Below, piece after piece: positions 22,716 to 62,323 of a DNA stretch of 64,000 nt. Every line of letters begins with the position of its first letter. The first letter of the stretch is position 1. The notes under the pieces were generated by a model. That model saw only the letters and a program-made list of their open reading frames with translations, had not been told where the DNA came from and did not search any database. The stretch spans positions 46,357 through 110,356 of the forward strand of contig JASAND010026111.1 of NCBI GenBank assembly GCA_030248195.1, read 5' to 3'. A program made the translations under genes and the position numbers. This DNA is from Trissonchulus latispiculum (lineage: Eukaryota > Nematoda > Enoplea > Enoplida > Ironidae).

Positions 22716-22762
22716 CGATTCGTCCGCACTCTTAACAAAGAGTGGCTTACGCAGACGAATCG
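22716..22762 (-). other. nested hairpin with TTGTTA loop
   Basis: Minus-strand sense: outer arms CGATTCGTCTG / CGGACGAATCG (one G-U pair), an unpaired GTAAGC, then an inner stem CACTCT-TTGTTA-AGAGTG. The young LTR has the same fold at 43,534-43,580 with different bases that still pair, which is evidence for selection on structure. Confidence 0.7.
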
Positions 22763-24830: not shown

Positions 24831-24860
24831 CTTCTAGAAGATTCTAGAACCTTCTAGAAG
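24831..24860 (-). promoter_or_regulatory. heat-shock element, six perfect units
   Basis: TTC and GAA alternate six times with exactly two bases between them (TTC at 24,832, GAA at 24,837, TTC at 24,842, GAA at 24,847, TTC at 24,852, GAA at 24,857). This is the canonical HSF binding array. It is preserved here although surrounding LTR sequence has diverged from the copy at 41,453. Confidence 0.75.
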
Positions 24861-39848: not shown

Positions 39849-41452
39849 TTAAGGTACTGGTTCACATATTTGCAACAAAATTTGAAAGACTTAATTTATT
39901 TAACTGTCGGAGTTCAACGACAATTTTTATAGCATTTTAAAGCTTAGAATGTGTAATGAAATTGGTAAAATTGGAAATTAAAATCTGTCTAAATTAATTA
40001 AAACATGGTCAGGACTTGTGAACTCGGTGACGAAGGATCTCCCTGCCATGGATTCGCGAAGAAGATCAACAATTATCATTACGGAAAGTGACTAATAAAT
40101 GATGTCCAAGCAATAACTGTATGAATTGTTTTGTGTTTGCCAAGCCAGAGTTGCCTAGTACTCAATATTGAGGGAAATTCTCAAATAGGGATTAAGGTTT
40201 GCACTCAATTAAGGATAGAACTCGTAGTCGCAGTAATAATGTTGAAGCATAAACATCATTAACCTATTAACAGTACTAATCTAGAAGCTGTTGACGAAAG
40301 GGTAATTCGGTCACCTATTCCCTAATGACCGGAGTTGTCACTCCACTCCACCTTAACCGGCAATATCTTAAAAAAAGTTAAAGGATTTTAGAGGAAATTA
40401 GTGAGTTGTTACTCCCCACGAAGGAAAATACTAGTAATTGTACCAATCTTAAGCGTTTTTAATGAGTTGTCACTCATAACTTGAGTCAAGAATGCCCCTA
40501 TTTACCACCTTGCACGTCCTTCATTGACTAAACACAGACCAGCAGGAAGTCACTGACTTTTAATAGGCAATTACACGCTTAATCAGCCTAGACTTGGTCA
40601 TCAAAATACTTATAAAGTGGAAATTTATGCAAAAAAAGGGACAAATATTGGAAGATGGTTCAATTTTAGGTAAAAAACAGTTAGGTACGTAGTTATATAG
40701 GTTTAATTAGGGTTAATTAGTATCAATTAGGTAATAATTAGTGAATTTTAACAATTTTGGGTCGAAACATGACTTGGGTTCATCTGAAAGAGAATTTGAC
40801 GCTGATTCCGAAAATCCAAACCCGACCTCCTAACTCCCAAAATTAGGAAAGTTATAAGCAAAAAGAGTTTCAAACGGGTTACATTTTGATGGTGTAATTT
40901 TAATGTTCTAGAACAAAAAGGCGTTCTAGAACATCCTTCCTTTTTGGTTTGACTTAAGTCAAACCTTTTTCTCTTTCTTCTTTTCTCTCCTTCTTTCTGC
41001 TGGGCCTTTCTCAAGGACCCAACAGTTGTCTTCTTCTCAAGCTTCGGCCGAAGACAAAGCCAGCAAAGAGGAAAAGGAAAATGTACACAATTTTCAGCCC
41101 AAGTCATGACTAGAAGGGGGCCATTGGCCTTTAATAATAATAATATTGCATTAATAAGTAGCTAAGAGTGCGTACGTAAGTATACACTAGGTAATCATGT
41201 AAATTAGTAGTTCTAGAAAATTGTGCAATTCGAGCAATAATTGGTGAAAGTTCTAAAAATTAGTAAAATTCTCCCTTTGGTTACGTTTACATGTTAAAGA
41301 AAAGTTCCCAAAATTCTACCAAGTTTTAGGGCCAGGGATCCATCAAAAAAGGGTCAGTTGGAGGGCAATAATTCTCGAAACTCATTAATATTGACCCTCG
41401 GCGGTCAGCTGGCCCGCCTCGCCACTGCGCCCCATATGTAAAAGGTGGCAAG

Positions 41453-41482
41453 CTTCTGGAAGCTTCCAGAACCTTCTAGAAG
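41453..41482 (+). promoter_or_regulatory. heat-shock element, six perfect units
   Basis: TTC at 41,454, GAA at 41,459, TTC at 41,464, GAA at 41,469, TTC at 41,474, GAA at 41,479, always two bases apart. HSF trimers bind three or more such units. The same six-unit array occurs in the 3' LTR (60,777-60,806) and in the diverged solo LTR. A conserved TCAGT at 41,587-41,591 is a candidate transcription start downstream. Confidence 0.75.
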
Positions 41483-41716
41483 CTTTGCCTCAAAATCAAA
41501 GGAAAATCCGCTTCCAAAATTACTAATGACCTGTCATCGGGCGGCTAGCAAAAACTGTCAGTCCGACCCCAAAATCCTCTTTCTAATCAGTGTTCGTCTG
41601 AGTGCGACCGAGAGCGGTTGCTTTCTCCCCTCCCTTCTAGTGTGCTCTCCAGTGCAGTTGTTGCCTGCATGGGGATTAAAGTACACTCTCCCCGGTTAGG
41701 ACTAAAACGTAGGGCT

Positions 41717-42058
41717 TTTCTGGCCTTCGGGCCAGAAAAGATACTGAGAAATATACCACGAACACTTACAATTTAAGGGCCACATAGGTTTGTTATACCT
41801 GGCCAGGACCTGCCAATAAAGGACAAAACGCTAGGATTTGACGGCCCTTTTGGCCTTATTTTTGTGTAATGTTGAGGCCTTTTGGCCATTTTTTATGTAT
41901 AATGTTTTTTGGGCCTGTGGGGCCAGTTTTTCTGTCTTTTGTACGGCCAACGAACCTAATTTCTATGTGTATTTCGGGCCAGTGAGCCCCACTTTTTCTC
42001 AGTATCTTGGGCCAGAGGCCAGTTTTATTTCTCTAGCATGTGTGGGCCTTTGAGCCGT
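41717..42058 (+). repeat. GGCC-spacer-GGCC array in LTR
   Basis: About ten units such as GGCCTTCGGGCC, GGCCTTTTGGCC and GGCCTGTGGGGCC, roughly 30-40 bases apart in AT-rich spacers. Each pair can fold as a small hairpin. Present in diverged form in the solo LTR at 24,335-24,500. Confidence 0.6.
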
Positions 42059-43533
42059 TTTTTAGTTCTTTTAAATTAAACCCTTATTCTTATTATTTTA
42101 TTATTTTAATAACGGGGCAGCTCATGTAAACTCCTCCTGTCTGACGGAGGTCTTGAGAATTGTCCCTACTTTGGTTTTTCTGTTTTTATACTCGACACTC
42201 TCTTATTATCGAGGTTTGCTGACCTCCGCCCCTCATTATTCTGTTTTATTTAGTTATTCTTTTATTTGCACTTTTCGGTCAAGCCGCGACCAAAATTGTT
42301 ATCACGCTCATAAGGCTCGTTGGCCAGTAAATTCGGGGTTTTGACGTAGAATGTGGGATATTGAGTGGGGACCCAACCACTGAATCTGAGCTAGAGGGTC
42401 CCTTTGCTACGACCCTAGAATGTTAAGCTAGTAATAGGAATTATTACCCCACAGCCGGCAACTAGGAGTTGCCGGCCGTATTGTCTTGTCGCGGCTTTGT
42501 TAAGCCCAAAAGTCATTGTTTGTGATTTGTAATTGTTTGTCGTAGGTCGGTTCGAAAATTAACAGGTTATCAAAAATGTGAAAAGAGTTTTTAAACGAAG
42601 TCCTAAAACAATCACTTGTCGTGTAATCCAACGGTTTCTAATAATTAATAATCCAGCGTTTCACGGGGAATGACCGGCTTCCCCATTTGTAATTTAGCTA
42701 ACTGTGAGTAGTTTTGTTTTTAGTAATGATTGCTTAGCAATCATTACTCACGTGGCTTTCCCAAAATTCCAAAGTTCATCAAAGTTGTCAAATTTCCGCG
42801 CTAAAAGTCGAGTTTTGGGACTCCAAAACTCGCAACAAAGTTCATTTAATATTTCACTAATTTTAATAACCAATAACTGTTTTTCGCCGTGCGTTTGAAC
42901 TTCCAGTTAGGGCTATACAAGGTTCAATAAGTCAATATTAGGGTTCTTAAATTGTCCGTAGGTGTGTGTGTGTGTGTGTGTGTGTGATTGGGATTAGTTA
43001 GGTAAGTACCTACTTGAGAGGTCGTATGCGTGTGAGAGTGTGTGCGTGGCGGTATGAATGGCATTGCATAGTTGGGTGTTTGGTATGACTGTTGACATGA
43101 GTATGTGTTGCACAAATGTCTGAGTTTATGATGTCGTGAGTATTGTCCGAATGTTGTATGAATGAGATTGAATGTGTGGTCCAAGTAAGGTGTAAATGTT
43201 GCTTAACTGGTGTGTGACTTAATGATAAGAGTATGTTGTGCTGGGATAATTAGCTAGAAGATATACCTTAGCTAGCAACAAATACGTGTGCGTGTGACCG
43301 CGTGAAACACCGAAATTAGTAGGTTTCCTATAGTAGGCAGGAAAATAATGATAACTAAGGTAACTTTAGGTAGTAGGCCTGGTGTGCCTGTGTAGATAGC
43401 TACAAATGTGTGATTGTGTGAGCGAAACTAAGCTTAGGTTCAGCCAAGTGAGTACACAGGTGGAGGGCCAAAGGATCTAGGGTCACGGGGACCCCGTATT
43501 AGGTCCTTACTGGTCGAAAAAAGGGAACATCCT

Positions 43534-43580
43534 CGATTCGTCCGCGTAGGTCACTCGTTGTCAAGAGTGCGGACGAATCG
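43534..43580 (+). other. nested hairpin with TTGTCA loop
   Basis: Outer stem CGATTCGTCCG / CGGACGAATCG (11 bp), one-sided bulge CGTAGGT, inner stem CACTC / GAGTG closing G-TTGTCA-A. It matches 22,716-22,762 on the other strand with compensating changes. Its 3' LTR copy is at 62,870-62,916. Confidence 0.7.
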
Positions 43581-43761
43581 CATGAAGGAAGTCCCGCCAG
43601 CCAGCGATTTCTCACCAAACAAAGTAACATTTTTTCCGCCTAATAACCCCTAGTTACGTAGATATTAGGGATAGTTACTAGAGCCATCTTCCAATAAAGG
43701 CAAGAAAACCAACGAAACACACAAAGTACGCAATCTCCGAAGTGTAAAAGCTATTAAAAAC

Positions 43762-43877
43762 AGGAAGTTGTTACCTTCCTCTTTTAAGACCCGGGAAACT
43801 ATATGTTTAACAACTATGCGCGTTAATGCTTTCCTACTCAGTTAACGTTCACCATAAATGGGAAGTTGTTACCTTCC
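43762..43877 (+). other. two GGAAG-TTGTTA-CCTTCC hairpins
   Basis: Stems at 43,762-43,780 and 43,861-43,877. Each has one extra C on the 3' side of the stem. Equivalent pair in the solo LTR at 22,051-22,069 and 22,169-22,187 (minus). Confidence 0.6.
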
Positions 43878-44058
43878 TCATCCGGACCTGGAAAACTAGA
43901 GGTCCTGAGCCTAATCACGCTAGAACAAAGTAGCAATGCACGTTTCAAGACGATTAATAGTTGCCGGCTTAGAGAAGGCTCAGCTTAACCGTAATCTTAC
44001 GCTCCCGGTCTGGGTTGCATCGAAGCAAGAAGTATAGGGCGAAATCATGTCATAATGG

Positions 44059-44088
44059 CAATTTCTTGCACAAGAGTGCAAGAAATTG
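44059..44088 (+). other. 13-bp perfect hairpin conserved in LTR family
   Basis: CAATTTCTTGCAC and GTGCAAGAAATTG around the loop AAGA. The solo LTR keeps the stem (21,819-21,849) with a different loop. Confidence 0.6.
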
Positions 44089-44253
44089 TGCGAGAACTAG
44101 CATTTCGCCTCAAAATTAACTGTCAAGGCAGCAATATTGTTAAAACGGCACCAAATCAAGACATTCTCGCTAAACTGTCAAGTTTTCACAACAAAATCAA
44201 GTTTACAAGTCTAATTCTTGTGCAGAAAGCCAAAAATGTGAGTAATGGTTGCT

Positions 44254-44314
44254 GGGTTCGAATCCCGCACCTATAACTTGTACTAATGGGTTTTAACCCA
44301 TTTGATTCAGGTGC
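44254..44314 (+). promoter_or_regulatory. tRNA T-arm-like block (box B) plus stem-loop
   Basis: GGGTTCGAATCCC is a perfect T-arm and RNA polymerase III box B. Directly after it, GCACCT (44,267) pairs with AGGTGC (44,309) around an inner AATGGGTT/AACCCATT hairpin. The whole block is nearly identical in the solo LTR although flanks differ. No clear box A, so it may be a tRNA-like RNA fold rather than a Pol III promoter. Confidence 0.5.
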
Positions 44315-45267
44315 GGAGAAGTGCTGTCCTGCTCAGCCTGTTGCCTGAATCCCAGTCAATTTGGACCGAAGTATCGATTTAGTGACGATCTGTGCTTATT
44401 GAGATTATTCGTCCGGAAGTAGGACACTGTGAATTGGGAACTTGTGTTGAACTCTGCTCGTTTGGAATCAGATTCTGGAAGGTACATTGTCAGCTGAGTA
44501 TTCTGGTTAGATAGATAAGGCAGAGACAGTTTGGAACAGCGCACCGAATCATCTGTGGGACCTAAGGCCTAAAACCCGAACTCTGTTGTGTTTTGAAAAT
44601 CTTTTATCTTTAAATCCAACCTAAAATGTGGCTTACCGCCCTTCTTGTTTTATTGGGTATGGATGGTTCCTGCGATCTCTGCTAAGAATCCATACCGAGG
44701 TAGAAGCACTAAAGAAGAGACTAAACCAAAACCTAACCTGTACTAACACCGTAACCGTTACCAGGAAACCCCCAACCGGACCGACCCTTGCATTGTCCCC
44801 CCAGGTGACCGAACAGCATCCGAAAGTGCTATTGTTACTGGCATTTCGGGCTCACCCACAGACCGGAATCGTGTACTACTAACAACTTTAATCTAGTTAA
44901 ATTATCTTTTCTGTAGCTTTTGTTATTATCATATTGTTGTCCTTGGTAAGGAGGACGGATAAAGAGTTTTAACTTAAAGCACGAGCACAAGCATATAGGG
45001 ACAGCACAGTAGAGTTTAGTGGTAGATTGTGACAAGAGAAAGAAAGAAAGAATTATCGGTTGAGCTAAAGAGTCAAGACCTTGTCCCTAAAATAATCACT
45101 AATTTGGGTAAACCGAGTACTGGCAACTCTGGCAAACCATTGTACTGTTTGCTGTTAATTGTATATCTGTAGTGTAAGTTGCCAATTGCACTGTTTGCTG
45201 TATTATCCTCAGTTGTACACCTATACTCACCATTGTCCTTAGTTTAATAAGTCTTGTTGTGTGTATC

Positions 45268-45273
45268 AATAAA
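45268..45273 (+). promoter_or_regulatory. LTR polyadenylation signal
   Basis: AATAAATTG is conserved in the solo LTR (minus strand near 20,563). It lies about 480 bases before the LTR end. Confidence 0.45.
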
Positions 45274-45772
45274 TTGCCGTGCCTTCTAATCAGTCGCATC
45301 ACCTAAGGCACCTATCCTGATCAATACTGTGGAGCATCTCTGACCCCTGAACAAGTAAGCGATTGTAATCAGACCCCTTGGACCCTACAAAGACAGCGTG
45401 ATCCCGGATCTTGATTTGTCAATCAAGGTCTTCGCATTAGAGTTCATTGTCACTGAACTGAGTCGCCCTCTGGAAAGCAAGTGTCGACCCCGCTTGCTGA
45501 CGATATCAACGGAGCCTGACCCCTTCCTAAACGAACTCACGGTCAAGACCCCACCCAGGTTGGCTGCAGGGAATTCTCAGTTTTGGACAAACCACCTTCT
45601 GAGAATCCGGTGCCTAAGTTTATCATCACCGATAAACGCGCTGACCTTCCGTGCTTTGAAGTGGTTGTTACCCCAAGCCTGCGTCTTGTTAGACCAAAAC
45701 GGACCCTAATCCAGCCGAAAGAAATTGGAACCCAAATCCAAGCCACTTCATTACACGGTAAATAGTAAAAGT

Positions 45773-45790
45773 TGGAGCCCCCAGTGAGGA
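45773..45790 (+). other. primer-binding site
   Basis: TGGAGCCCCCAGTGAGGA begins with TGG as needed to pair with a tRNA CCA end, and lies 17 bases inside the LTR. The spacing is longer than the usual few bases. A donor-like GGTAAAT lies in the spacer (45,757). Which tRNA primes cannot be told from the window. Confidence 0.5.
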
Positions 45791-45939
45791 CCAATCCCCC
45801 ACGACGATTATCCAGTTGGACAACCTACCAGTGAGGACAATCACGACCCAAAGACCCAATCATTAAGATCAAGCGAGGATCCACCCTTACCCTTTCAAGG
45901 AATCAGCTACGACCCTACCGATCAACCCAAGAAGAAAGT

Positions 45940-46947
45940 ATGGAGCAGTTTGATCCTGCAGATGATAATGGAAATGGACCCCCGAACATGGCACTGCCAA
46001 ATGCCCCTCCTGGTCCCCCCGGAATTCCCCCTCCCTATAACCCCCAAATGCCCCAGATGGTTTTTCCTCAGATGCCTATCCTACATAATGGAAATGTGGA
46101 GGACCTTCTAGGCCAGCTGCGTGACAGCATCCAGAACCAGGCTATTGCTGCCTCCTACCGAGATATGCCCATTTACTCCGGAAAGGACCATGAAAATTTC
46201 GATGATCACCTGGTCAACTACGAGAAGTTTAGCCAGAGGCTCAATCTAGACGACTACCAGAAAGTCATGAACATCTCCTCTACCCTCCGAGGCCGAGCCG
46301 CAGAGATTTATAAATGCATGCCCAGAGGCGCCATGCAACAGGACGATTGGGAAGCCTCAGTAAGAGCCCTCAGAGAAGTCATGATCCCTCCTATGACAGA
46401 TATGCACGCCACGGCCAAACTGTTCAGCATCAGGCAAATGCCGCACGAATCAGTGGCTGATTTTTCCCTCCGATTGCAGAAGTATGCCCGAATCGCCTGG
46501 GAAGACCGAGGAGACCCGGGAATGCTTGAAGATATCAAACTAAAGACCTTCCTCATAGGATTGCGGAACGAATTCAAGCCGCATGTCCCTATGGATACCG
46601 CAGATTACTCCCTGGCCTTTAAGAAGGCCCGAGCAGCAGAAGGCGTTTACCCGGGAGAAGGAACCCCCGCCTTTCTGGAAGTTGACCCTGAAGCCTCCGT
46701 CCCGAGTACAAATCTTACCGGCCCAGCCCTTCTTAATACCATCAGTTCCCTAGTCCAAAGTACCGCACTGCTAGCCAATGAGATCAAGGAAATCAAGATT
46801 TCGGGAAGCGAACCGCCCAGATCAGCTCCCCCGCCCCGGAAGGGAAATGATAAGATCCCATTCCCCAATGACTTCAGGTGTTTCAACTGTGGAAGAGCTG
46901 GACACTCCAAGATCGCCTGGAGGCGGAGCTTACCGACCCAGAAATGA
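45940..46947 (+). CDS. gag: Gag (matrix/capsid plus partial zinc knuckle)
   Basis: A Pro-rich N-terminus (residues 1-50) precedes a Ty3-type capsid region: W/Y..F.DHL..Y near 85, LRGRAAE.Y near 113, and the capsid C-terminal signature HESVADFSLRLQKYARIAW at 169 with FLIGLRNEF after it. Near the end C314-x2-C317-x4-H322 starts a CCHC zinc knuckle, but the fourth ligand position is Trp327 and the frame closes soon after. The neighbouring +1 frame continues with a Gly/Asn/Pro/Arg-rich sequence typical of a Gag tail, so a frame change occurs around 46,911-46,918. It acts in particle assembly and RNA packaging. The ATG at 45,940 is the first good start after the leader. Confidence 0.75.
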   Translation: MEQFDPADDNGNGPPNMALPNAPPGPPGIPPPYNPQMPQMVFPQMPILHNGNVEDLLGQLRDSIQNQAIAASYRDMPIYSGKDHENFDDHLVNYEKFSQRLNLDDYQKVMNISSTLRGRAAEIYKCMPRGAMQQDDWEASVRALREVMIPPMTDMHATAKLFSIRQMPHESVADFSLRLQKYARIAWEDRGDPGMLEDIKLKTFLIGLRNEFKPHVPMDTADYSLAFKKARAAEGVYPGEGTPAFLEVDPEASVPSTNLTGPALLNTISSLVQSTALLANEIKEIKISGSEPPRSAPPPRKGNDKIPFPNDFRCFNCGRAGHSKIAWRRSLPTQK

Positions 46948-49900
46948 TTTCGTCGGCCCTCCGCGCAACAATTACAACAACAATGGCAATGGAAATGCCA
47001 ACAACTTCCGACCCAACAATGGACAGTCAAGGTACCCCCCTAATGGCAATGGAATGAACAGGAATTACAGCGAACGATACCCACCCAGAAATGGACCCCC
47101 TGGACAACCTCAGCAATACCCCCAGCCGAAGCCTCAATGGAGCAGAGATAATGGGCGCAATGCCACTGAAGTTGTACATGCACCCTATGGGTCAAGATTT
47201 GCTGACGTGGGTCATCAGAGAAACCCGCCTCCCATGGTCCAAGCCATAAGTGCCGAGCCCGAAGGTAACACCGCCTATTTTCCTCCTAACCACTCCAGTC
47301 TGCCTACTCAGGTCTTACAGCTAGAACAGGAAATCAAGGATTTGGGAGGCCAACACTTTTCCGTCCCTCCCTATTTCAAGATTGAACAGCCGAAAGGAGG
47401 ATCTGCCTACACCCTGAATGCTGAGGAAGACTCTGTGGACCCGGAAACCGATCGACTGGATCAGGAATTGCATTCCCTGCCTATGTACCAGAAACCAATG
47501 TCCGTTACTTATCCCCGGACCCACAGACTGGAGGAACCCCAGACCATAGAGTATGGCTATCCGTCTCACGTCAAGAGGCGACTGTCCCAGAATCCTACAG
47601 CCTCTCTTCCCCCAAACGGAAAGACCGCCGAGAAGGAAAGTGCCTTTAAGCCATCTGGTGAGGAATCTGAGCCAATGGCCCAGCCTCCACCGCGAAAGCC
47701 TGCTGGTCCATATGATGCAAATCCGCGGAAGAATCCGACGCGGAATCATTCCTTAGGACGCGGTCGAGGGCTACAACGGAGTCCCCGATGCCATGATTTC
47801 ACCCAAACTTATCCCAAGCCTCGATTTCAATCAGCCCCTCCATCCGACGCCCTAACCATAGGACTCGGTGAAGCTGTCCGGGAATTCCGAATTCAACTTG
47901 GGTTGTCACCCGATCCACAACTGCCGTCTCTCCCCGGGCAAGAAAGAGGGAAGGCGATCCATTCCGAACGGACCGAACAAAGATCAGACCTGAGGATACA
48001 TCCTCCGGCGGATATGGCCGCGGTGATGCAGTGTGCTCAGAAAGTGCTTGCTCATGGCGGGATGGCCATGGACTTGTTACGTGCTCCGTTGGTCCCTGAG
48101 AAGGAATTGATGAGATGGGAAAAACCGAAGGAACCGATTCAGGAGCATACCCCCCAAGAAGTGGTCCCGATTGCCCCCCAACAGGTAAGACCCTCCAACC
48201 CTTGTCCCATTGACATGGGCCCGGTGATGACATTTACTCGACGAGTTTTGGATCGAGTTGGAGAACCGTACACTGAGGAAGAGCTCCTCAGTGTCCTGGA
48301 TCCCAGCATTTTCCTGACCCAGTATGGATCCCATTCCCCGCCTAGAATGGAATATCAAATCAGTGACCTTATCAAGCACCCGGAGAGAGGAAGATTCAAG
48401 ATCATTGACCAGGAGGCTATCTACGAAGTTAGCCGAAGGATCCTGAAGAGGCTTGGTAGGTCAGTATCTGATGAGAACTTTTATTGCTCCCTTGACAGCG
48501 ACATATTGGAAGCGCCGGAAGAATCGCCTCACGCTGGAAGATTGGATCTTTGGGTAGAAAACCTCCTCAGCACCTCCATCCCCTTGACCTGGAGGTTACT
48601 CCCGGACAAAAAAGAAAATCATGACCCTCTGTCCATTCTGTCTGATAGGCCTGTCATCAATGACCTAATGGACAGCCTGGAGGAGACAACCAGCTCCAAC
48701 ACTTCAGAAGGCTCAGACGAAGAATTGGACACTGCCGTGAGGAAGCTTCGCTCCCGGGAAATCCGAGTTAACCTTAACGCTGTTGAACCCACCATCATAA
48801 AGACCCGGAAGAACAGGAAGAGCAAAAAGAAGAAGAAGAAGGTCATTAAGAGGATAAAGAAAACTCTTGGGGAGGTTCACATCCCAGACTCTGACCTGTG
48901 TCCCCAGGACATTAAGTTCCTTCGCCGACTGCTGAAAGATGTTCGAAGTAAAGAAAGGAAACGCGCTCAGAAGGAAGAGCGACGTGCCTGGCAAATGAAA
49001 CGAGAACGCGAAAAAAGTTGGGAATCATACCAACAGTACCTCATGGCACGAGCCCGAATGGAGGCCCTTCACCCAATCAGAAGAACAACTGACACGCCCC
49101 CGCCTCAGAGAAAGACTCCTACCCCGACTCGCAAGAGCAGCCCAAGGTCAAGTTCTGTTCCCACAACTGTACGACTACCCGAAGAAGAGCTGATCCTAAC
49201 TCCCCCCAACAATGAACACGATGGAATTCCTACGCCCAAAACGGCCACGAAATCGAAAAGTCCGACCTCATTGCCCTTCCCCATCCTAGTGATGTGGATT
49301 GTTTTCGGTCTAATGATAGCCCTGTTGGTTCCCTGCATTCAGGCACAAGATAGTGACGACTACTTTACGCAAAGGGCTAAGGCAATGAATACCATGGTCT
49401 CCACCAAGTGGGGCTTGGCCCTCTCTCCCAAAGGACTGATGGCAACCTACACCAAAACGGAATATGTCCCTATCCTGATCCACATGAAGATGCCCGAGCC
49501 ACCCAGAGTCAAACGGATGAAAGCTTGGCTCTCTTTCTGTACCCTCTGCCGGCAACAGCGGTACGATATTCCGGAACACCTACTGTCCCGGTGCAACAAA
49601 TGTGGCGAAAGCCTTGGTTCAGATGGCGATTGGCCCTGCAGCCTGTGTCGGGTGCCCCTTGCGAATCAGACTGAACAGATGCGAGCCAAATGCCGGACCT
49701 GTACAACGCACCGTGACCGAGTCGATGAGTGGCTGGAGGATTGTCCACACGAACCGCATCTGAACAGCCTGATCCAGAACATCACTGAAGAGTATCATGA
49801 AATGTATGGTGGGATACTCAATACTAGGTATTATTCGTCCGTGATGAAGATTATCTGCGACAAAAGTCCCATTCTCTGCAACACCTCCAAACCTAAGTAT

Positions 49901-50845: not shown

Positions 50846-53388
50846 TCAGAACCAGCCACCCAGAAGTGATGCTTACGCAAACTCCCCAACTACAACATGT
50901 GTCACGAGGCGAGACTATCCCTGTGCCCAGTAACGGTGTAATATGGCTGGAGCATGGATCCTACAACCACATCGTAGTTGGCGACTTAGTACTAACCAGC
51001 GCGATAGAAGTTCTACAGTATTCAGCGCCCCTTATCACCTACAGAGTTCCCTTCGAAGCCCCTGATTTAGGTGTGGTCCCTATCCAGTTCACTGATTTAG
51101 AACGAGCGGAATACGAAAACAAAGCCGTGAAGAAGCTGCTAGAAAAACATCACCGCACCGCACCCCTTGTTATCCATCCGCTCAACATGAATGTGTGGAC
51201 GGCCTTTATCATTATCCTTGCTCTGATTGCGGTGGGAGTAATCATCACGATTTGGTTCTCCCCATGTATGGGTAATGTCCGAGCTAGTCTTATTCAACGG
51301 ATGCGAGGATCATGTTTCGGTCTGGGACAGAGATTGAGTAGATTGGGGACTGGAACCCAAAGAGCTCCGACTTCTCCTCCTACCTCACCTCCGGTTAGCT
51401 CCGGTCTGTCGGAATCACGCAGCCGGTCTCCTCTGCTCGAAAGACCATTACCCCCAATCCGCCCAGCCACGCTGAACAGAACCCGAGGACCCAGACCTCG
51501 CTCCTATGCTTATACATCCGAAGGAGGACAGCTAAGATTCGAAGAGATCCCCCTACAACCGTTACAACCTTACTCTCCCGGTCCCCCGGAGATAGGGCTT
51601 CCCAATCCTATTCGACCCAGAAGACCCCTGATACCCGGACCTGAAGAAGATCATCAAGGAGACGAATCGTTCCACCCGCTCCACCAATATGGAGCTGGAT
51701 CTTATGAGCCAGAAAGTCCGCCGCCTCGTGCAGCCAGCCCCGATGTTGGCAGGATGGGAGCTCGAGCCCTAACTCCACCACCATATCAGGGCCACCGATC
51801 TCGAGATTCATCTTCCGGAAGAAGGGATAGGGTCTGGTGTCTCATGGACGAACCGGAATACTTAATGGAAAATTACCCCTCCAGTGGCATTACTCCCTGT
51901 ATCGATGTATCCATCCAGGGGGTCACCATCGAGGCTGTCCTGGACACAGGAGCGAGCATCACTGTCATATCGGAGAGTTTAGTGAAGAAGCATAACTTCA
52001 CCATGGTAGACCTGGAACAGCCACGACTGAGCTCCTCAGCCACTGGACACCAGTTAAGCATTACCAAGAAGATTGAGGCAATCATCGTATTCCCTGGTTG
52101 TCCCAGCCATCCACCTATCCCTCATGATATCTTTGTCAACTCTAACTTACCGCCAGTGATCCTACTGGGAACCGATGTCCTGGCAAAATTCGGTGGCTCC
52201 TTCGAGATCTCCTTTGCCACGAAAGAACTAAAGATACGCCCCACGCCTATGCCTGCCGCCTATGTAATCCCTCTAACAGCGCCTTATCATTTATTCGAAG
52301 CCGCCTCAGGAGCCCCCTCGGGCAGAAACACAACCCCTCATGCACAGCCCCGACGCTCATCATCCGTTGGTGGAGAGAGACCACGAGGCGCTAGCCTGCC
52401 ACCCTCCCGGCCTACGGAACTGCCCCTTACGTCGGTGTCATCAGCTTCCTTGGTCCCAGTCAGACAGACGGAGTCTGAAACTGTATGGCAGTATTACCAT
52501 CGGTTCTGTGACCATGCGGCTATCATCTATGGTGCTCAGGCAGACTCAGAATCATTAAAACTTAGTCTTGGGAGAATTTTCATATTCGGACTGCGAAAAG
52601 ACATACGCCTGCAAATACCCTCCTCATCAGGTCACCTGGATGAACTATACCTGTTGGCTCTCTCCATTGAAGACGAAATGCGTAAGGACGGGCGAATTCT
52701 TCCGCCACCAGCAGCGGCGGACCCGCGAGGAGACCGAAATACTCCCGCCCTAACGGGGGCCAATAAGCCTGCTGCTAAAACGCCCCTATCTGGTGTGGAC
52801 TTCCGCGCATGTAAACAGATGCTGAGCACCATTGAGCAGAGGGAGGATGAGTCGGTAGATCATTTCTACTTACGGCTGCTTGGGTTTGCTGGGGAAATAT
52901 ATCCCGAGCGGTTGACTGACACTGAAGTCGATGCCTATCTCAGTCTACTCTTTATTGCTGGACTTCGAAGTGAAGTGCGCGACAGGACCAGGATGTATCC
53001 GGACACCACAAGAAGCCTATACCACTTATACCTATCCGCCCTAGCGGGAGAAAGACATTTACCCAAGGAAGGACAACAAGCCACGTCCTCGGAACCTCCT
53101 GCACCGCCCCCAGCAGTTGCATCTCGGGCTCCCAGGACCATCCCTCCCAGATTTCAAAGGGATCCCGGTCGCAGAGAGACTGAACGGGAAAGAATCGTTC
53201 CCCTTGGATTTGGAGGAGGATACCCGGATCAAGATGACATCCTTTTACCTTTGGACTACCTGACCCTGCGAGCACGCTCGGATGCCGCACGTCTCGCCCC
53301 GCCAGCTCACGAGCAGAACCGTTATCAACCAGGAGCCTCCCGACCCCAGGATCCGGAGGAGCCTTCTTCCCGAAGGCAGCAGCATTAA
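50779..53388 (+). CDS. Env membrane anchor, retropepsin and capsid-like repeats
   Basis: This frame is open from 50,779 and overlaps the previous ORF by 67 bases, one frame back. Residue numbers run from the GTG at 50,866. The first 105 residues look like the membrane-proximal end of the glycoprotein, followed by a transmembrane helix at 110-131 and a cytoplasmic Cys/Arg part. A Pro/Arg-rich linker leads to a retropepsin with active-site LDTGAS (Asp360) and the flap-distal signature ILLGTD (432-437). Two stretches then resemble the capsid C-terminal domain seen in gag: ESETVWQYYHRFCDH at 536 and DESVDHFYLRLLGFAGEIY at 661, each followed by a GLR motif. Placing protease and capsid-like units after Env is not a standard order. 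No RT follows; the ORF ends in a basic Pro-rich tail. Confidence 0.65.
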   Translation, partial: TANDGKSPDPDTDFASTPAGVLIRTSHPEVMLTQTPQLQHVSRGETIPVPSNGVIWLEHGSYNHIVVGDLVLTSAIEVLQYSAPLITYRVPFEAPDLGVVPIQFTDLERAEYENKAVKKLLEKHHRTAPLVIHPLNMNVWTAFIIILALIAVGVIITIWFSPCMGNVRASLIQRMRGSCFGLGQRLSRLGTGTQRAPTSPPTSPPVSSGLSESRSRSPLLERPLPPIRPATLNRTRGPRPRSYAYTSEGGQLRFEEIPLQPLQPYSPGPPEIGLPNPIRPRRPLIPGPEEDHQGDESFHPLHQYGAGSYEPESPPPRAASPDVGRMGARALTPPPYQGHRSRDSSSGRRDRVWCLMDEPEYLMENYPSSGITPCIDVSIQGVTIEAVLDTGASITVISESLVKKHNFTMVDLEQPRLSSSATGHQLSITKKIEAIIVFPGCPSHPPIPHDIFVNSNLPPVILLGTDVLAKFGGSFEISFATKELKIRPTPMPAAYVIPLTAPYHLFEAASGAPSGRNTTPHAQPRRSSSVGGERPRGASLPPSRPTELPLTSVSSASLVPVRQTESETVWQYYHRFCDHAAIIYGAQADSESLKLSLGRIFIFGLRKDIRLQIPSSSGHLDELYLLALSIEDEMRKDGRILPPPAAADPRGDRNTPALTGANKPAAKTPLSGVDFRACKQMLSTIEQREDESVDHFYLRLLGFAGEIYPERLTDTEVDAYLSLLFIAGLRSEVRDRTRMYPDTTRSLYHLYLSALAGERHLPKEGQQATSSEPPAPPPAVASRAPRTIPPRFQRDPGRRETERERIVPLGFGGGYPDQDDILLPLDYLTLRARSDAARLAPPAHEQNRYQPGASRPQDPEEPSSRRQQH

Positions 53389-53396
53389 TTAATGTC

Positions 53397-53540
53397 TGTT
53401 ATGTATTATGACGGGGGGGGGTAACAGTATATAAGTCCCCGCCCCGGGAACGAAGATTAGAGGGGTAAAATCTGCTCTAGTAACGTGTAGTATGAGAGAG
53501 TTCTACAATAAACGATTTAATCACCTAAAATATCTACAAT
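53397..53540 (+). promoter_or_regulatory. embedded LTR-like promoter/polyA block
   Basis: Starts TGTTATGTATTATGACGG, has TATATAAG at 53,428-53,435 and AATAAA at 53,507-53,512, and ends ..TATCTACA. This is the compact layout of a small Ty3-type LTR. It lies just after the protease/capsid-like ORF and upstream of the accessory ORFs, so it could be a captured LTR or an internal promoter and terminator. No second copy is in the window. Confidence 0.4.
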
Positions 53541-54204
53541 GTGTCTATTCAAAATTGATAATCTCAAAATTTATACAAAAATATCATCAAAATATCTTTA
53601 TGCAAAGTCCTAATCTCGTTCCCACCTGATAACAAAGAAAACTATATAAAAAGCTATATAAAATAAAATAATACAAAAAAATGGTGGATCTAATGTACGA
53701 TAAAAAGGTCAATAGTTTTGTATAAAGTTTGGTGTGTAAAGTTTAATTTGGAAGATGAATTTAGAATATCGATTGCGAAATACGTAAAGGGGATGTAAGT
53801 TATTCATTGTATGTGTACCATCAGAATTATTATCTAACCCAAGAATTGTAAGCCAGAGTTGCCAGGGGAGAAATGCTCCCTCCGTTTCACACCTTTTAAA
53901 TGTTACGTGTTTTTAGTGTGTCCATGTTTGTACCTAGAAATGATGTAAATATTGTCTATATTTATGCTAAATGGTTAGTTGTGGTTATGAACTGTTTTTA
54001 GCACGCGCTTGTACGTTTGGTTGTCACCAAAAAGTGAACCAAAGGTTGTTATCCTAATGAAGGTTCAAAAGCGATGAATAGAAGGTCACCCACTATACCA
54101 CGTTCTAAACAAACGCGAAAAGAGTTGACACCTCTAGCGTAATTGATACACGTATTGTAACTGGCCCCGGAATTAATGGGAAAATGCTTTATTTTAGAAA
54201 CAAC
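53541..54204 (+). other. gene-free spacer with TTGTYA hairpins and splice acceptor
   Basis: Contains GCCAGAGTTGCC (53,852), the same word as the LTR subterminal repeat. TTTGG-TTGTCA-CCAAA (54,016-54,031) is a perfect hairpin and AGG-TTGTTA-TCCT (54,043-54,055) a weak one. The acceptor TGCTTTATTTTAG ends at 54,197, eight bases before the next ATG. Confidence 0.55.
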
Positions 54205-55773
54205 ATGAACCAACTCCAGCTTCATCAGAGTGCACTGGAGCAGCTCAGGAAGCTAGGCATCTTCCAGCTGCCGTATTCCCCTGACAATCCGGGTGATTTC
54301 TTGTGGTTCCGAAGCGATTCGGAGACCCACAAGGACCTCTCCAACTTCGCCGCACACCCCGGAAAAGACGCCGATGGAAAGCCCATCATGATCCGACATC
54401 TGAAAAAGGAAAGGCTCACGGCGGAGCACACTTTCCATGCCCTCCTTGCTGACCTCACCGGCGCTTACAAGGTCTCCAAAGACATTCTGAAGGAGAAGGA
54501 ACCGAAGTTGGTCAAAAAGAAGGGCCGCGAGGAGATCAACCTCAGCTGCCTGTTCCCCTACCCCCACTCCTACCTACCCTTCAAGGCACTTGTCATGGCC
54601 GGGATCGCCCTGTCCAAATTCTCTATCCCTTACTTCAGGGACCAATTGATGGCGACCGGCAACCGCCGCCTTCTTGAAGCCACTGGAGACCCCTTCTGGG
54701 GTATTGGCGAAGAGTTGTTCAACTTGCGCTGTGAAGAATTCAGCGCCTCCAAGGAAGAGGCCGATCAGCTGGCCCTCAATGTGGCTCATGACAAGCGGGC
54801 CGCAAACATCATGGGCCAGATCCTGGAATTCCTTCGGGTCTGTCTGAAGGACCCGAATGGTCTGTATGCCGCCAACCCTCGAGTTGTCATCGTTGGGGGT
54901 TGTGCGCTGCAGAATAATCAAATCATTGATATCCTGAAGGAGATCGGCGGATTTCAGGACCCCCTCCTGCTTCCCATCCACCGAGCGAACCCCGCCCGGT
55001 GTCTGCGGGTGGTCAACGCTATCAGGTCTCCGATGCTGACGAAGATCTTTGTTCTGCCCGAGATCACTGTGGTCCGGGAGATCAAAGAAAAGATGGATTT
55101 TGGCGCTGTGTACCAAGCAGAGGCCAATAAGCTGTCGGAAGTTTTCACCCAGACGCAGGGCTATCAGGAGCCCGTTCCGATGGTCCGGGCCTTTCCGACC
55201 ATTGTTTATGTGCCGGATTCCGGCAACCCGACCGAGCAGATGAAGAAGGATCCTGGTTGGGCAGCCCTGACCTGGGGGTGCTATACCTTCAGGTCGGATG
55301 GGACCCACTTTCGGCCCCAGGATCCGATCGCCATCCCGAACGGTCAAACCTATGTCCTCTGCCCGGACAATTACCCTCGTGTCCGAGAAGCTCTGATGGC
55401 CCCGGACCTCAAGCGGCATAACTACACCGCTTATCGGCAGAAGCGCCCCCAGACCGATAGCCCGCTCTTCAAACCGCGGCACCCTACTCCGCCCTCTGCC
55501 TGCTCTACTTCCCGGAGCACCTCCTCCGGTTCAACCTCCCAGCGATACCAGCGGCGCTACTGTCCCAGCCGCCGAGAAGACCGAAAGCGGAGGAACCGGT
55601 CTCCCCCACGTTCGCGACCGTCTCCCCCCTCAACCTCTGGACGGCCGCAGGTCCCCCCGGAGAGAAAACGGGACTCTCCTCCAGTCCCCAATCTGATGAC
55701 CCTCTCCCTTGGGCCACCACCCAAGAGCCGCCGAGGCAACCCGCCTCCCTGCAAGCGCTGTTGCAATCACTGA
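54205..55773 (+). CDS. NADAR (YbiA/DUF1768)-like protein with SR-rich tail (522 aa)
   Basis: Residues about 32-215 show the NADAR family pattern in order: F.F.S.......LSNFAAHP at 32 (family: SNF.P), TAEHTFHALLAD at 72 (family: EH..Q..K), LMATGNRRLLEATGDPFWGIG ending with FWGIG at 164-168 (family: L.ATG...L.E....D.FWG.G), and ANIMGQILEFLR at 200 (family: N..G..LM..R). Family members are reported to hydrolyse N-glycosidic bonds, including removal of ADP-ribose from guanine in nucleic acid, and to act on riboflavin intermediates. Residues 220-430 form a second globular region I do not recognise, with VVIVGGCALQNNQI. The last 90 residues are Ser/Arg/Pro-rich, suggesting RNA binding or nuclear-speckle location. 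I chose ATG 54,205 because a splice acceptor ends at 54,197; the upstream ATG is intronic. Expression from a spliced RNA is inferred. Confidence 0.6.
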   Translation: MNQLQLHQSALEQLRKLGIFQLPYSPDNPGDFLWFRSDSETHKDLSNFAAHPGKDADGKPIMIRHLKKERLTAEHTFHALLADLTGAYKVSKDILKEKEPKLVKKKGREEINLSCLFPYPHSYLPFKALVMAGIALSKFSIPYFRDQLMATGNRRLLEATGDPFWGIGEELFNLRCEEFSASKEEADQLALNVAHDKRAANIMGQILEFLRVCLKDPNGLYAANPRVVIVGGCALQNNQIIDILKEIGGFQDPLLLPIHRANPARCLRVVNAIRSPMLTKIFVLPEITVVREIKEKMDFGAVYQAEANKLSEVFTQTQGYQEPVPMVRAFPTIVYVPDSGNPTEQMKKDPGWAALTWGCYTFRSDGTHFRPQDPIAIPNGQTYVLCPDNYPRVREALMAPDLKRHNYTAYRQKRPQTDSPLFKPRHPTPPSACSTSRSTSSGSTSQRYQRRYCPSRREDRKRRNRSPPRSRPSPPSTSGRPQVPPERKRDSPPVPNLMTLSLGPPPKSRRGNPPPCKRCCNH

Positions 55774-56244
55774 ACGGACCAGAAACGGCTGTAATAACTG
55801 TATATGTATATGTGTGCACTTTATATATGTTGTATGTTATGAATGTTCTGTATTATGATAGGTTAATTGAATTATGTATTTTGGGGTTATCTTATCGCTG
55901 TTTTAGAACTTTCGAGATCAGATACTATTTGAAACTGACAAAATTGGGGTTGTCACCCCCATGGCTGCATTTCGTGATAAAAGTTGATTGTCATCAACAA
56001 ACGTTGGATAAAGCAAGGGTGATTGTTATCAACCCGTAACGGATAAAAGTATTGGATAATCGCCGGTCATACTAGCCCCACTGCTAAACTCTAAGGGTTG
56101 TTATCCACTTGAGAAATAATGCACTCAGGTTGTCACTCTGAACGCATACGCAGTAACTGGAGGATGAGGCTATGTTCACGTACATCCTGCTTAACAGGCT
56201 GACATTAATTTATGAATTTTAGAATAATATATCATCAGAAGGAG
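55774..56244 (+). other. spacer with cluster of TTGTYA hairpins and splice acceptor
   Basis: GGGG-TTGTCA-CCCC (55,946-55,959), GTTGA-TTGTCA-TCAAC (55,983-55,998), GGGTGA-TTGTTA-TCAACCC with one bulged A (56,017-56,035), and TCAGG-TTGTCA-CTCTGA with a bulged T (56,125-56,141). ATTTATGAATTTTAG at 56,208-56,222 is a good acceptor for the next ORF. Confidence 0.6.
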
Positions 56245-57021
56245 ATGAATGGTAATCCAGCTATGGATACAGCCCCCCGATCCTACAGCCCGCTGATGAC
56301 AGTGTCCCAGAATCTGTCCTTTCGGAACCCTATGGTTCTTCCGGGACTCAGGGTCCCCTCCCCTTATCTGACTACTCAGAATATCAGGCACAGGGCACCT
56401 GTGCCCAGCCCTCGCATCCCTTATGTGGGATTCCGGCCCATTACAGTGGCCCCCCAATCAGCCTCTGTGGACGTGTGTCCGCAATGCAACACACCGTTCG
56501 CCAAGCCGGGAGAGCCAAAAGCAGCAACTAACTGCCCCGTCGAGGTCCCGCACTCTGTCGGAAAATACACCGAAAGGAGGGACCTCAACGATCATCCCTT
56601 TCATGTCCCCTCGGCCTACAAGGTCTCCCACCTCCTCAAGCTGGTGGAGGAAATGAAGAAATATCCCGTTGGCATGCAACATCCGGGATACAAGGCCAAT
56701 ATGGATGCCGTCGGCCTGAGGCTGCGTGACAGCCTCATCCAATTTGAAAATCATATCCGACCCTTCCCCGGTAAGACCCCACATGACGACATCCAATCCG
56801 CCTTCAGAAATTTCCTGCTGAAGATCAACATCGAGCGGATGACCGAGGCGGACATCGCCCTCTTCCTGCGGGAACTGGAGAACCTGCGGATTAACATCCT
56901 CCTCCTCATCAACACTCCCGGGTTCAAGGTTGAACGCCCCCTATTCCCTGAGCCGCCCTTTGGAAAATTCCCCCCTTACCCTACCCTCTGTCATCCAGAT
57001 GGCCCCCCGGCCGATACGTAG
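56245..57021 (+). CDS. accessory ORF with CxxC motif (258 aa), ends at TAG
   Basis: The start at 56,245 is the first ATG after the acceptor ending at 56,222; an upstream in-frame ATG lies before the acceptor. The N-terminus is Pro/Ser-rich. CPQCNTPF at 78 looks like half of a zinc ribbon, with another Cys about 20 residues on. Residues about 120-240 are helical (VSHLLKLVEEMKKYP, LRLRDSLIQFENHI, ALFLRELENLRINI). I do not recognise the family. The frame stays open for 176 more codons after the TAG at 57,019, so the product may be longer by read-through. Confidence 0.55.
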   Translation: MNGNPAMDTAPRSYSPLMTVSQNLSFRNPMVLPGLRVPSPYLTTQNIRHRAPVPSPRIPYVGFRPITVAPQSASVDVCPQCNTPFAKPGEPKAATNCPVEVPHSVGKYTERRDLNDHPFHVPSAYKVSHLLKLVEEMKKYPVGMQHPGYKANMDAVGLRLRDSLIQFENHIRPFPGKTPHDDIQSAFRNFLLKINIERMTEADIALFLRELENLRINILLLINTPGFKVERPLFPEPPFGKFPPYPTLCHPDGPPADT

Positions 57022-57549
57022 GCCCCTACTGCCATTCCCTCCCCCCAGTCGGAAAACTCACCATTTTCTGTTGGGGAGGATAGGAATGATGAAGACGAAG
57101 AAAGTGAGGAAAGTGAGGAAAGCGAAGACGAAGAAAGTGAGGAAAGTGAGGAAAGCGGTGAGATGGACCACGATCCTCTCCTGCAGCGGCTCGAGGACGC
57201 CCTTGGACTCAGCCAAAGCGGAGCATCCTCCGACGAGCAAGACCCTGACCTGGATCCCCTCCCCCCGTTGGATATCAAGGCCCCCCTCCTGCCGGAGGAA
57301 TGGCGGGACAACGTGCCGGCCTATATCCAGAGAGAACTAAAGGCCCTGGATAGCTGCCTCGACGCCGGTATCATACCTGTGATCGAGTATTGGAGACAGA
57401 TCGGAGAGCTAAAGATCATCGCCCACGAGAAGGCCCGTGCCATCCGGGAATCCACCGGTGGATCTAGTTGGAATCCCCCCTCCCGGAAGAGGACATGGAG
57501 GACTATCTGCACGAGATTCTCACATACGATCCCTACGGTCGGTAAATAG
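57022..57549 (+). CDS. in-frame extension after TAG: acidic Ser/Glu repeat domain
   Basis: Continues the 56,245 frame without a break. It starts Pro-rich, then has a tandem acidic block of ESEESEE/EDEESEE type (about 57,090-57,160), followed by a helical part with LPEEWRDNVPAYIQRELKAL. An internal ATG at 57,163 could also start it. Reading frame and codon use look like the upstream part, which argues that both halves are one gene. The TAG could be a recent nonsense mutation, a leaky stop, or an error. Confidence 0.45.
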   Translation, partial: APTAIPSPQSENSPFSVGEDRNDEDEESEESEESEDEESEESEESGEMDHDPLLQRLEDALGLSQSGASSDEQDPDLDPLPPLDIKAPLLPEEWRDNVPAYIQRELKALDSCLDAGIIPVIEYWRQIGELKIIAHEKARAIRESTGGSSWNPPSRKRTWRTICTRFSHTIPTVGK

Positions 57550-58594
57550 CGCCCCCCTGAAGCCCCTAGTATGACTGGCCGATTCTGTACATAAAGTGTG
57601 GAAAACCTGTGAAGAGAAAGTTTAAGAGGAAAACCTAAAAAAGAAGCATATTTAGAAAAATACAAAAAAATACTTAACCTTGAAAAGTCAAAAATACTAC
57701 GTAAGGACTGTCATGTATTCGGGGTGTGCAGTGAATATTTTGTATTGTTTGTATAGCCTGGGTATGAGTATATCTTACATAAACATTGGTGTTTGTCATC
57801 ATGTACTGATTATTAATGGGTGAACGGAAAGAATCTGGCAAGTGTCTGAGTAATGAAAAAGTGAACCAAAAAATTAATTGAGGGATGTTAGTAGGTATCG
57901 GCGGTAGTTGCCAAATCGCCTTGTAATTGTTGCTGACTGTTGTATAGTTAATCCGGTTTACGTAGGATCACTAAACGGCTAGTAGCTAGGGATTTTGCAC
58001 TGTGTACAGGTTTAGTGATAATGTATATGCATTTTGTCTTCGATTGTTTATTTGATAAAACTTATGTGTTTGTATAGTTGTTAATTGCTTGTGACAGACT
58101 CTGAAGAGATGATCTTCTATGCCCAAAACGAAACGGGATTTTTACTCCTAAAATTAAGAAATGTTCAGGAGCCAGCTCAGTATATAGGGGAATTGTTTGT
58201 ACGAATATATTATGTTTGCAGTGGTATCTGTTGTGACCGTGTTATGTTTTGTTGGTTATTTGCGAAAGATAGAATCTGAGTAATAGAAGAAGGGAACAGT
58301 CATTCGATAAGAAAGGAATAAGCCTACGAGACAGTTGTATGGGTTGTTAATCATAGAAATTCGATTGCGAAGTGACTACAGTGTTAGCAGATTTTTAGAA
58401 TATGAACAAGAGTTACGGTTGTGTAATAATGAGTATGTTTGTAATTTTTGACAGTGGCTATTAATAGACGAATTTGTATGAAGTAACTGTCTGATACTGA
58501 AGCGGATGTGTGAAATGGAAATTATTAAAAGGATAGCCGGTATTTCGTTTAACCTTTAAAGGGACAAGGTAACTATAGGAGACTCGCACTGAAC

Positions 58595-58668
58595 AATCGG
58601 GTTGTTACCCCGATTCTGAGAAATCTGGTTGTTACCCAGATTCTGTGCCATCGGGTTGTTACCCCGAT
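58595..58668 (+). other. three consecutive TTGTTA hairpins with covarying stems
   Basis: AATCGGG-TTGTTA-CCCCGATT (58,595-58,615), AATCTGG-TTGTTA-CCCAGATT (58,622-58,642) and ATCGGG-TTGTTA-CCCCGAT (58,650-58,668). The second differs at a stem pair on both arms, so pairing is kept. Each has one unpaired C on the 3' arm. Confidence 0.75.
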
Positions 58669-62200: not shown

Positions 62201-62282
62201 CTGTTTTTCGCCGTGCGTTTGAACTTCCAGTTAGGGCTATACAAGGTTCAATAAGTCAATATTAGGGTTCTTAAATTGTCCG

Positions 62283-62323
<41 letters not shown>

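Follow-up and report, generated by a model that had tools for sequence, protein, structure and literature searches.

In the nematode Trissonchulus latispiculum, a 64,000-nt stretch of DNA (C17684:46357-110356 of the 733.8 Mb genome; hereafter the window) carries a long terminal repeat (LTR) retroelement that begins at 39952 and continues past the window end, and the sense strand of this element is studded with short hairpins in which stems of unrelated sequence present one kind of loop, UUGNYA, often followed by a 3' pyrimidine. The counts given below confirm that this set is real and lies far above chance. Such a loop occurs on any stem, many times and in one orientation, and therefore points to a site at which a protein recognises the loop; on balance, we favour the view that hairpins of the element RNA are read by a protein through this loop and mark the unspliced RNA for selection. 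A sequence-only reading of this DNA had proposed a repeated recognition site on the element RNA, and this proposal is well supported by the single orientation, the loop-position specificity, the compensatory changes and the restriction to the family among the loci examined; the uses that it had named for such a site, packaging, translation or recruitment of a trans-acting pol, are putative.

When all perfect hairpins with stems of at least 5 bp and loops of 4 to 7 nt were enumerated with no loop assumed, TTGTCA was the top 6-nt loop and TTGTTAC the top 7-nt loop on the element sense strand, and every other hexamer loop had at most one hairpin on that strand. Between 39950 and 59275, TTGTYA hairpins with stems of at least 5 bp numbered 11 on the sense and 0 on the antisense strand, versus a mean of 0.017 (maximum 1 in 300) in dinucleotide shuffles, and with stems of at least 4 bp the counts were 14 sense, 0 antisense and 0.07 in shuffles. 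The claim that all hairpins are element-sense is upheld by these numbers. The motif itself occurs 38 times sense versus 8 times antisense in the element (binomial p=5e-6). Among these unselected sites a stem of at least 4 bp was found at 14/38 sense positions (permuted 3' flanks gave 0.97, maximum 6 in 20,000) and at 0/8 antisense positions, and host DNA of the window yielded 1/24 and 1/26; stems of at least 5 bp were present at 11/38 sense sites, several of the sites listed by the sequence-only reading having 3-4 bp or a bulge. A covariance model trained on 21 heptaloop hairpins, with which the window was scored without filters, gave 19 matches at E<0.1, every one in element sense, which is the plus strand within the element and the minus strand within a diverged solo LTR, with the best match outside the element and solo LTR at E=1.3; because 10 of the 21 training sequences are window hairpins, these matches are not independent.

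The hairpin sites of the element are given here with their loops in brackets; a hairpin is called strict if at least 4 Watson-Crick pairs adjoin the loop, either immediately or after a single extra base on its 3' side.

40331..40344, plus strand: hairpin GGAG[TTGTCA]CTCC, kept in 6/6 copies
40462..40477, plus strand: hairpin ATGAG[TTGTCA]CTCAT, loop lost in all 3 aligned copies
41653..41669, plus strand: hairpin TGCAG[TTGTTGC]CTGCA with a 1-nt 5' bulge and a lower stem, kept in 8/11
42211..42226, plus strand: hairpin GAGGT[TTGCTG]ACCTC, kept in 9/10 copies
42493..42506, plus strand: hairpin GGCT[TTGTTA]AGCC, kept in 9/10, loop TTGCTA in 3 copies
43552..43569, plus strand: hairpin CACTC..TTGTCA..GAGTG, kept in 8/11 copies
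43762..43780, plus strand: hairpin AGGAAG[TTGTTAC]CTTCCT, kept in 23/24 copies
43861..43877, plus strand: hairpin GGAAG[TTGTTAC]CTTCC, kept in 22/23 copies
44827..44843, plus strand: hairpin TGCTA[TTGTTAC]TGGCA with a bulged G and a lower stem, kept in 26/28
45410..45427, plus strand: hairpin CTTGAT[TTGTCA]ATCAAG, copies mainly TTGGCA, TTGACA and TTGGTA
45441..45459, plus strand: hairpin AGTTCA[TTGTCAC]TGAACT, TTCTTTGATACAGA in most copies
47898..47913, plus strand: hairpin TTGGG[TTGTCA]CCCGA within a coding frame, kept in 3/4 copies
54016..54055, plus strand: cluster TTTGG[TTGTCA]CCAAA and AGG[TTGTTAT]CCT, upstream of the NADAR open reading frame (ORF)
55944..56141, plus strand: hairpin cluster with loops at 55950, 55988, 56023, 56098 and 56130, upstream of ORF 56212-57021
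58595..58668, plus strand: three tandem hairpins with loop TTGTTAC on stems AATCGGG, AATCTGG and ATCGGG, loops 27 nt apart

All 21 sites listed by the sequence-only reading have TTGTYA in the orientation it gave. Its claim that the stems always pair holds for 15 of the 21, which are strict hairpins; the other six (40401, 43552, 47900, 54043, 56017 and 56125) have stems of just 3 bp or form only if a G-U pair, a bulge or a mismatch is allowed, 43552 and 47900 being better formed in other copies than in the window. Sites that it had missed lie at 41658, 42216 (TTGCTG), 42497, 44832, 45416, 45447 and 56098 in the element and at 24654, 24172, 23905 and 21051 in the solo LTR. A further candidate at 41790 was dropped, its TTGTTA loop being kept in 2/10 aligned copies. 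Copies of 41653..41669 have the loops TTGGTA, TTGTTA, TTGTTAC and TTGCTAC, the sequence of 43552..43569 would permit a lower stem GATTCGTCCG/CGGACGAATC with a 5' bulge, and the region of the 54016..54055 cluster holds 3-4 hairpins in the copies L089, L091 and L092, with none found in L090. Three 88-nt tandem repeats (58702-58965) directly follow the triple hairpin cluster.

The specificity of the loop was determined over 48 family sequences (242 kb), counting distinct sites with stems of at least 5 bp. Such stems flank TTGTYA at 35/267 sites, and the other bases at position 4 of TTGNYA also carry them (G 6/118, C 4/134, A 3/142), versus 2/530 for TTGNYA on the antisense strand. Replacement of G3, or of Y5 by a purine, left 0.2-0.5% of sites with such stems, and replacement of A6 gave 7/311 for G, 6/632 for T and 0/478 for C. 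The asserted invariance of the hexaloop is thus not borne out: position 4 varies in the family, and relatives appear to vary position 2 and the closing pair. A seventh loop base was present in 34/55 distinct TTGNYR hairpins (C in 27), the other 21/55 being hexaloops, and the preference of TTGTCA for perfect stems and of TTGTTA for one extra base held weakly (7:5 vs 4:19 distinct hairpins, Fisher p=0.022, a contrast that counts homologous copies too). In general, the loop may consist of an NGNY tetraloop closed by a U-A or C-G pair; the hexaloop class fits U[UGNY]A, the heptaloop class requires a 3' bulge for that fit, and the C-G closing pair in the loops of relatives supports pairing across the loop. 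Kissing loops were rejected: UUGUYA is not self-complementary, and the sense strand has no TRACAA-loop hairpins of at least 5 bp.

Copies of the element were located through the word GGGTTGTYACCC, which occurs 225+183 times in the genome versus 43+63 times for its reversed control, and comprised 8 excised loci, 40 regions and 6 further pieces; with the LTR piece 44790-44910, 628 first-look candidates were found, of which the 40 that were scored are 96-100% identical. Six of six pattern loci without family homology (L064, L069, L070, L076, L086 and L087) had no hairpin cluster and single matches at most, 4/6 in G runs or otherwise isolated. Within family loci, a TTGNYR hairpin of at least 4 bp (G-U allowed) was retained in 150/190 slot-copies across 17 slots, the misses being 25/25 at 45447 and 15 at other slots, and hairpin cores exceeded their flanks in identity at 10/10 slots with data (11 tried). 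Compensatory swaps are seen at 41658 (TGCAG/CTGCA to TGCTA/TAGCA), at 55950 (GGGG/CCCC to GGGA/TCCC) and at 58602, and the stem of the second hairpin slot in the 55.9-56.1 kb cluster is GTTGA/TCAAC in the window but GGGG/CCCC in copies, around the same kind of loop. For the tandem slots at 58602-58656 and their homologues (12 distinct hand-chosen rows, 500 shuffles), 95.2% of cells were paired vs 84.8% in shuffles, 10 cells were changed on both sides vs 3.3, and the covariation score was 0.331 vs 0.128, each reached in 0/500 shuffles, counts that are not probabilities because the rows are related; the signal vanished on sliding the partner. Of five measures, these three were above shuffles and two were not. 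As a separate observation, the LTR-related locus L050 (G000:C2674:2500-6000) contains five copies of AAGAGGG[TTGTTA]CCCTT at 54- or 108-nt spacing.

These data also bear on the idea that the hairpins have no RNA-level function and are palindromes produced by a mutational process or drift and kept by descent. The tandem hairpins and the diverged copies have a common ancestry, and palindromes of other kinds are frequent in related LTR pieces, as this idea would have it. Against it stand the single loop, the single orientation, the loop-position specificity, the compensation and the conservation of cores above flanks, and we consider it very improbable.

The element in which the hairpins lie, and the solo LTR of the same family, have the following parts.

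39952..45755, plus strand: 5' LTR, TGTAATG...CATTACA, ~5.8 kb, with about eleven hairpins; ends set via comparison with the solo LTR
45940-46947: gag, Retrotrans_gag domain PF03732 (Pfam)
46778-50845: long frame between gag and protease, with a weak Fusion_gly match (E 4e-6, below the Pfam cut-off)
50866-53388: protease frame
54184..55773, plus strand: NADAR-domain ORF with an Arg-rich C-terminal tail
56212-57021: accessory ORF
59276..64000, plus strand: 3' LTR, cut by the window end, in which the hairpins of the 5' LTR recur
20097..26371, minus strand: diverged solo LTR, limits as read from the sequence
25965, 24654, 24172, 23905, 22738, 22181, 22063, 21235 and 21051, minus strand: hairpin loops of the solo LTR

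The 5' LTR is 99.5% identical to 59276-64000 over 4.7 kb. No reverse transcriptase or integrase was detected by Pfam in the given frames of the window element. The final 125 aa of the NADAR ORF hold 22 Arg, 18 Ser and 25 Pro, and this ORF is interrupted by stops in two fetched copies, L090 and L091.

With respect to these frames, hairpins of at least 4 bp fall 14 times in non-coding and 0 times in coding sequence, the latter making up 10,357 of 19,324 nt, and the site at 47903 in a coding frame has 3 Watson-Crick pairs plus a G-U pair in the window. This placement is relevant to two narrower versions of the reading that we favour, whose probabilities overlap with it and do not sum to one. In the first, the hairpins would be packaging signals bound by the zinc knuckle of the element Gag, by analogy with dispersed viral packaging signals: the element has a Gag with a Retrotrans_gag domain and ~20 hairpin copies along a long RNA, and dispersed stem-loops with a common loop motif are already known as such signals from the part of the literature covered (PMC6281560). 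However, strict sites avoid coding RNA, and gag identity does not separate hairpin-bearing copies from relatives with other loops (see below), so that recognition by Gag in this manner is unlikely. In the second, splicing or nuclear export would be controlled, with the internal clusters lying in introns upstream of the 3' splice sites of accessory ORFs and keeping part of the RNA unspliced. Acceptor-like TTATTTT(C)AG stands directly before the NADAR ORF start in 5/5 aligned rows, TATAATTTCAG precedes ORF 56212 in 5/7 rows (with TATGATTTTAG-like words in the remaining two), and the two internal clusters are located ~70-280 nt upstream of these splice-acceptor-like sequences at the accessory ORF starts. 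On the other hand, the splice sites are deduced from sequence alone, the LTR holds about half of the hairpins, and three follow the last long ORF without a known acceptor, and we hold this version, too, to be doubtful.

To compare the hairpin-bearing copies with relatives that have a similar gag but other LTRs, 120 of 2,067 candidates from a genome gag search were scored, and ten pieces were taken from seven long-frame contigs with 82-89% gag identity to the window. The gag frame of the window stops at 335 aa, and frames of ~2,500 or 3,800 aa are open in 30/120 scored copies (nine of 3,787-3,841 aa and 21 of 2,490-2,573 aa). One relative's long frame encodes integrase (PF17921, PF00665), and pol may possibly be supplied to the window element in trans because integrase-encoding relatives exist in the genome; the hairpins in such relatives carry other loops. 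Among seven 1.6-kb upstream pieces, five share only a ~95-nt block (44225-44318) with the window element, C3872 shares this block and more, and C4438 shares nothing. The block contains GGTTCGAATCC, which we take to be tRNA B-box-like, is 84-94% identical to parts of six mostly unrelated LTR pieces and is 98% complementary to a block of the solo LTR.

In these relatives, T.GNYA or C.GNYG loops on stems of at least 5 bp occur 9 times sense (of 190) and once antisense (of 214), and the sense/antisense counts for control loops were 3/1 (T.CNRA or C.CNRG) and 0/1 (A.GNYT or G.GNYC). The loops are of the kinds TGGGTA, CAGGTG, CGGGTG and TAGGTA, as in TGCAGGAAA[TGGGTA]TTTCCTGCA, ATGGGGG[TGGGTA]CCCCCAT and GCAGGAAA[CGGGTGC]TTTCCTGC; AAGAAA[TTGGTA]TTTCTT and AAGAAA[TAGGTA]TTTCTT are found upstream of a NADAR frame, and the genome holds 58 occurrences of GGGGGTGGGTACCCCC versus 2 of its control. 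NADAR frames follow the long frames in C17124 and C659, with identities to the window's NADAR of 52% (residues 6-406) and 48% (6-167), respectively, versus 58-75% for the stretches that matched in hairpin-class copies. The two groups are not told apart by gag, which shows 86-88% identity to that of the window in the hairpin-bearing C2887, C3544, C2214 and C585 and 88-89% in the other-loop relatives C17124, C6651, C659 and C6111. This suggests that the loop form changes with the LTR and that NADAR is somewhat more distant too, each subfamily contributing few hairpins. As C17124 has two TGGGTA hairpins, one weak TGGATAT and no cluster in the 2 kb after its long frame, and the GGGAG slot of C6651 and C6111 has other loops, a loop code in relatives is no more than a suggestion. 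In L098 (G000:C17124:10700-12300) we also noted a long perfect hairpin, GCAATTTCCTGCA/TGCAGGAAATTGC, near a TGGGTA hairpin with the same stem word, and L104 holds a long hairpin that resembles it.

From these comparisons, a partner protein in the 3' module or from the host appears more likely than Gag alone. It is conceivable, though a long shot, that subfamily-specific loop codes (UUGNYA, UGGNYA and CRGGUG) would be read by a protein of the faster-diverging 3' module, for which the NADAR protein with its Arg-rich tail would be a candidate. The NADAR domain family is linked to guanine glycosidic chemistry, and the most constant base of the hairpin loops is G. If true, a loop code would enable each subfamily to recognise its own RNA among the RNAs of relatives whose gag is similar.

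A host protein might instead read the loops, either an RNase III-like double-stranded RNA binder that prefers NGNN or a TRIM-NHL protein, with silencing or cleavage as possible outcomes. NGNY falls within the NGNN G2-loop class, which the RNase III Rnt1p prefers on short stems according to the part of PMC4334505 covered here, and Brat, an NHL protein of the fly, binds UUGUUG (PMC5908797, in part). Yet Rnt1p is a yeast enzyme that cleaves hexaloops poorly or not at all (same part of PMC4334505), Brat binds single strands, relatives have not kept the second U, such hairpins are not in excess in the host DNA of the window (1/24 and 1/26 sites, as above), and retention across diverged copies favours a benefit to the element. 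We regard a host reader as distinctly unlikely.

In the reading that we favour, namely that a protein recognises the hairpins of the element RNA through their loops, the stem would present the loop irrespective of stem sequence, and the full-length transcript would carry ~20 hairpins in the LTR and between ORFs. Several copies of the binding protein would thereby gather on unspliced element RNA, and the RNA so marked would be selected, that is exported, kept unspliced or packaged. What is read would be RNA, not single-stranded DNA, the reader would be a protein and this protein would presumably serve the element. Several results weigh against this reading. Sampling through GGGTTGTYACCC biases the slots that contain this word, and 45447 forms a strict hairpin in 0/25 copies. 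At 58602-58656, pairs changed on both sides (3 vs 2.0; 137/500) and further pair types (5 vs 4.2; 175/500) were not above shuffles, and the rows compared are mutually related and picked by hand. In predicted folds of five pieces 7/10 hairpins form, the outer two of 58595-58668 and the one at 55983 being replaced by other pairings, and 1/5 pieces was clearly more stable than shuffles (z -3.28; others 0.12, -1.37, -1.09 and -0.61); local folds alone therefore do not prove the hairpins. When TTGTYA sites alone are considered, the coding versus non-coding contrast is weak (hairpins at 0/6 vs 14/32, p=0.067), and the two parts differ in composition. Finally, the loop pattern of the relatives was defined after some loops had been seen, and 3/9 of their sense hairpins represent one homologous slot (C6651, C659 and C6111).

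The hairpins may bear on how giant, pol-less retroelements distinguish their own RNA from that of the host and of relatives. Here, a compact signal is repeated ~20 times per element, kept in several dozen copies, partly by compensation, and seemingly varied between relatives. Because the signal is compact, repeated and kept across copies, its reader protein can be sought directly by short-RNA binding assays.

In the host DNA of the window, a tRNA-Ser (AGA) lies on the minus strand at 35628-35701, and a perfect 183-nt inverted repeat (31706-31888 and 32330-32512) adjoins several nested inverted repeats at 30.9-31.5 kb. Among the matches listed in a COX1 search made for the host genome, most are 60-72% identical and a fly is the one animal named; an internal TAA, Tyr under table 14, would hint at flatworms, but the COX1 contig is frame-disrupted.

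The sequence-only reading knew of no described family with this loop, and in agreement with this we found no described family with this loop or arrangement in the largely open-access literature searched, and an Rfam scan of the window at gathering scores matched no hairpin, its sole match being the tRNA at 35629-35701. Phage or viral relatives were sought and rejected. GGAAGTTGTTACCTTCC matches 6 IMG/VR contigs, each with that single hairpin in the piece examined, and a two-hairpin pattern found 34 viral contigs, of which only L014, with a short tandem repeat, had a hairpin array. When 20 of these 40 viral loci were scored with the covariance model, 7 matches resulted, six being the shared word. 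Protein-based viral scans with the NADAR and protease ORFs yielded no relatives, a search with gag found no homologue at E<=0.001 among 2,063 candidates, and a homologue search with the NADAR ORF found none among 7,993 candidates scored.

Among known RNA elements, mimicry of a tRNA anticodon arm was discarded: this arm has a 5-bp stem and a loop of seven nt in which position 33 is always U and position 37 a purine. TTGTTAC fits this form, but 21/55 hairpins are hexaloops, and relatives (TGGGTA, CAGGTG) have lost the equivalent of U33. The LIN41 response element likewise presents a loop beside a U-A pair on a stem, but LIN41 requires exactly three loop nucleotides in the portion of PMC5908797 covered, whereas the element loops have six or seven, or four inside a U-A pair. 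A linear UUGUUG of the Brat type was also rejected, as stems lie far above chance and position 4 varies, as does position 2 in relatives. At the level of the whole element, the giant Gypsy-like Burro elements of planarians, compared by description, have a gag, a fusion-type envelope between gag and protease, giant size and accessory ORFs, as the window element appears to have (PMC6431247, in part), and the material covered there makes no mention of hairpins; unlike Burro, the window copy has 5.8 kb LTRs and a NADAR ORF and no reverse transcriptase or integrase by Pfam. Gypsy elements of Ectocarpus also bear a NADAR domain, which in the window, unlike in those elements as far as the part of the account covered goes, is a separate downstream ORF (PMC12477816).

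The closest known loop form appears to be the NGNN (G2) tetraloop. Hairpins cleaved by Rnt1p have a short stem of free sequence and a required tetraloop with G at position 2 (PMC4334505, part covered), in apparent likeness to those of the element, and differ from them in that the element loops have, on the tetraloop reading, a pyrimidine at position 4 of the tetraloop, a U-A (or C-G) closing pair and a frequent extra 3' pyrimidine, and are present in many copies in one retroelement of an animal-type host. In Rnt1p substrates about the first 5 bp beneath the loop are paired, which is the case at 11/38 of the unselected sense TTGTYA sites of the element. The closest known arrangement is that of dispersed packaging signals, a scheme described for MS2, hepatitis B virus and others in the covered part of PMC6281560, with many stem-loops per genome that have a common loop motif. 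Multiple stem-loops with a common loop motif are likewise found in this one element, and the MS2 motif (x)xYA resembles its NYA (PMC6281560). Unlike such signals, the sites of the element are nearly all non-coding, and relatives in which gag is similar seem to have different loops.

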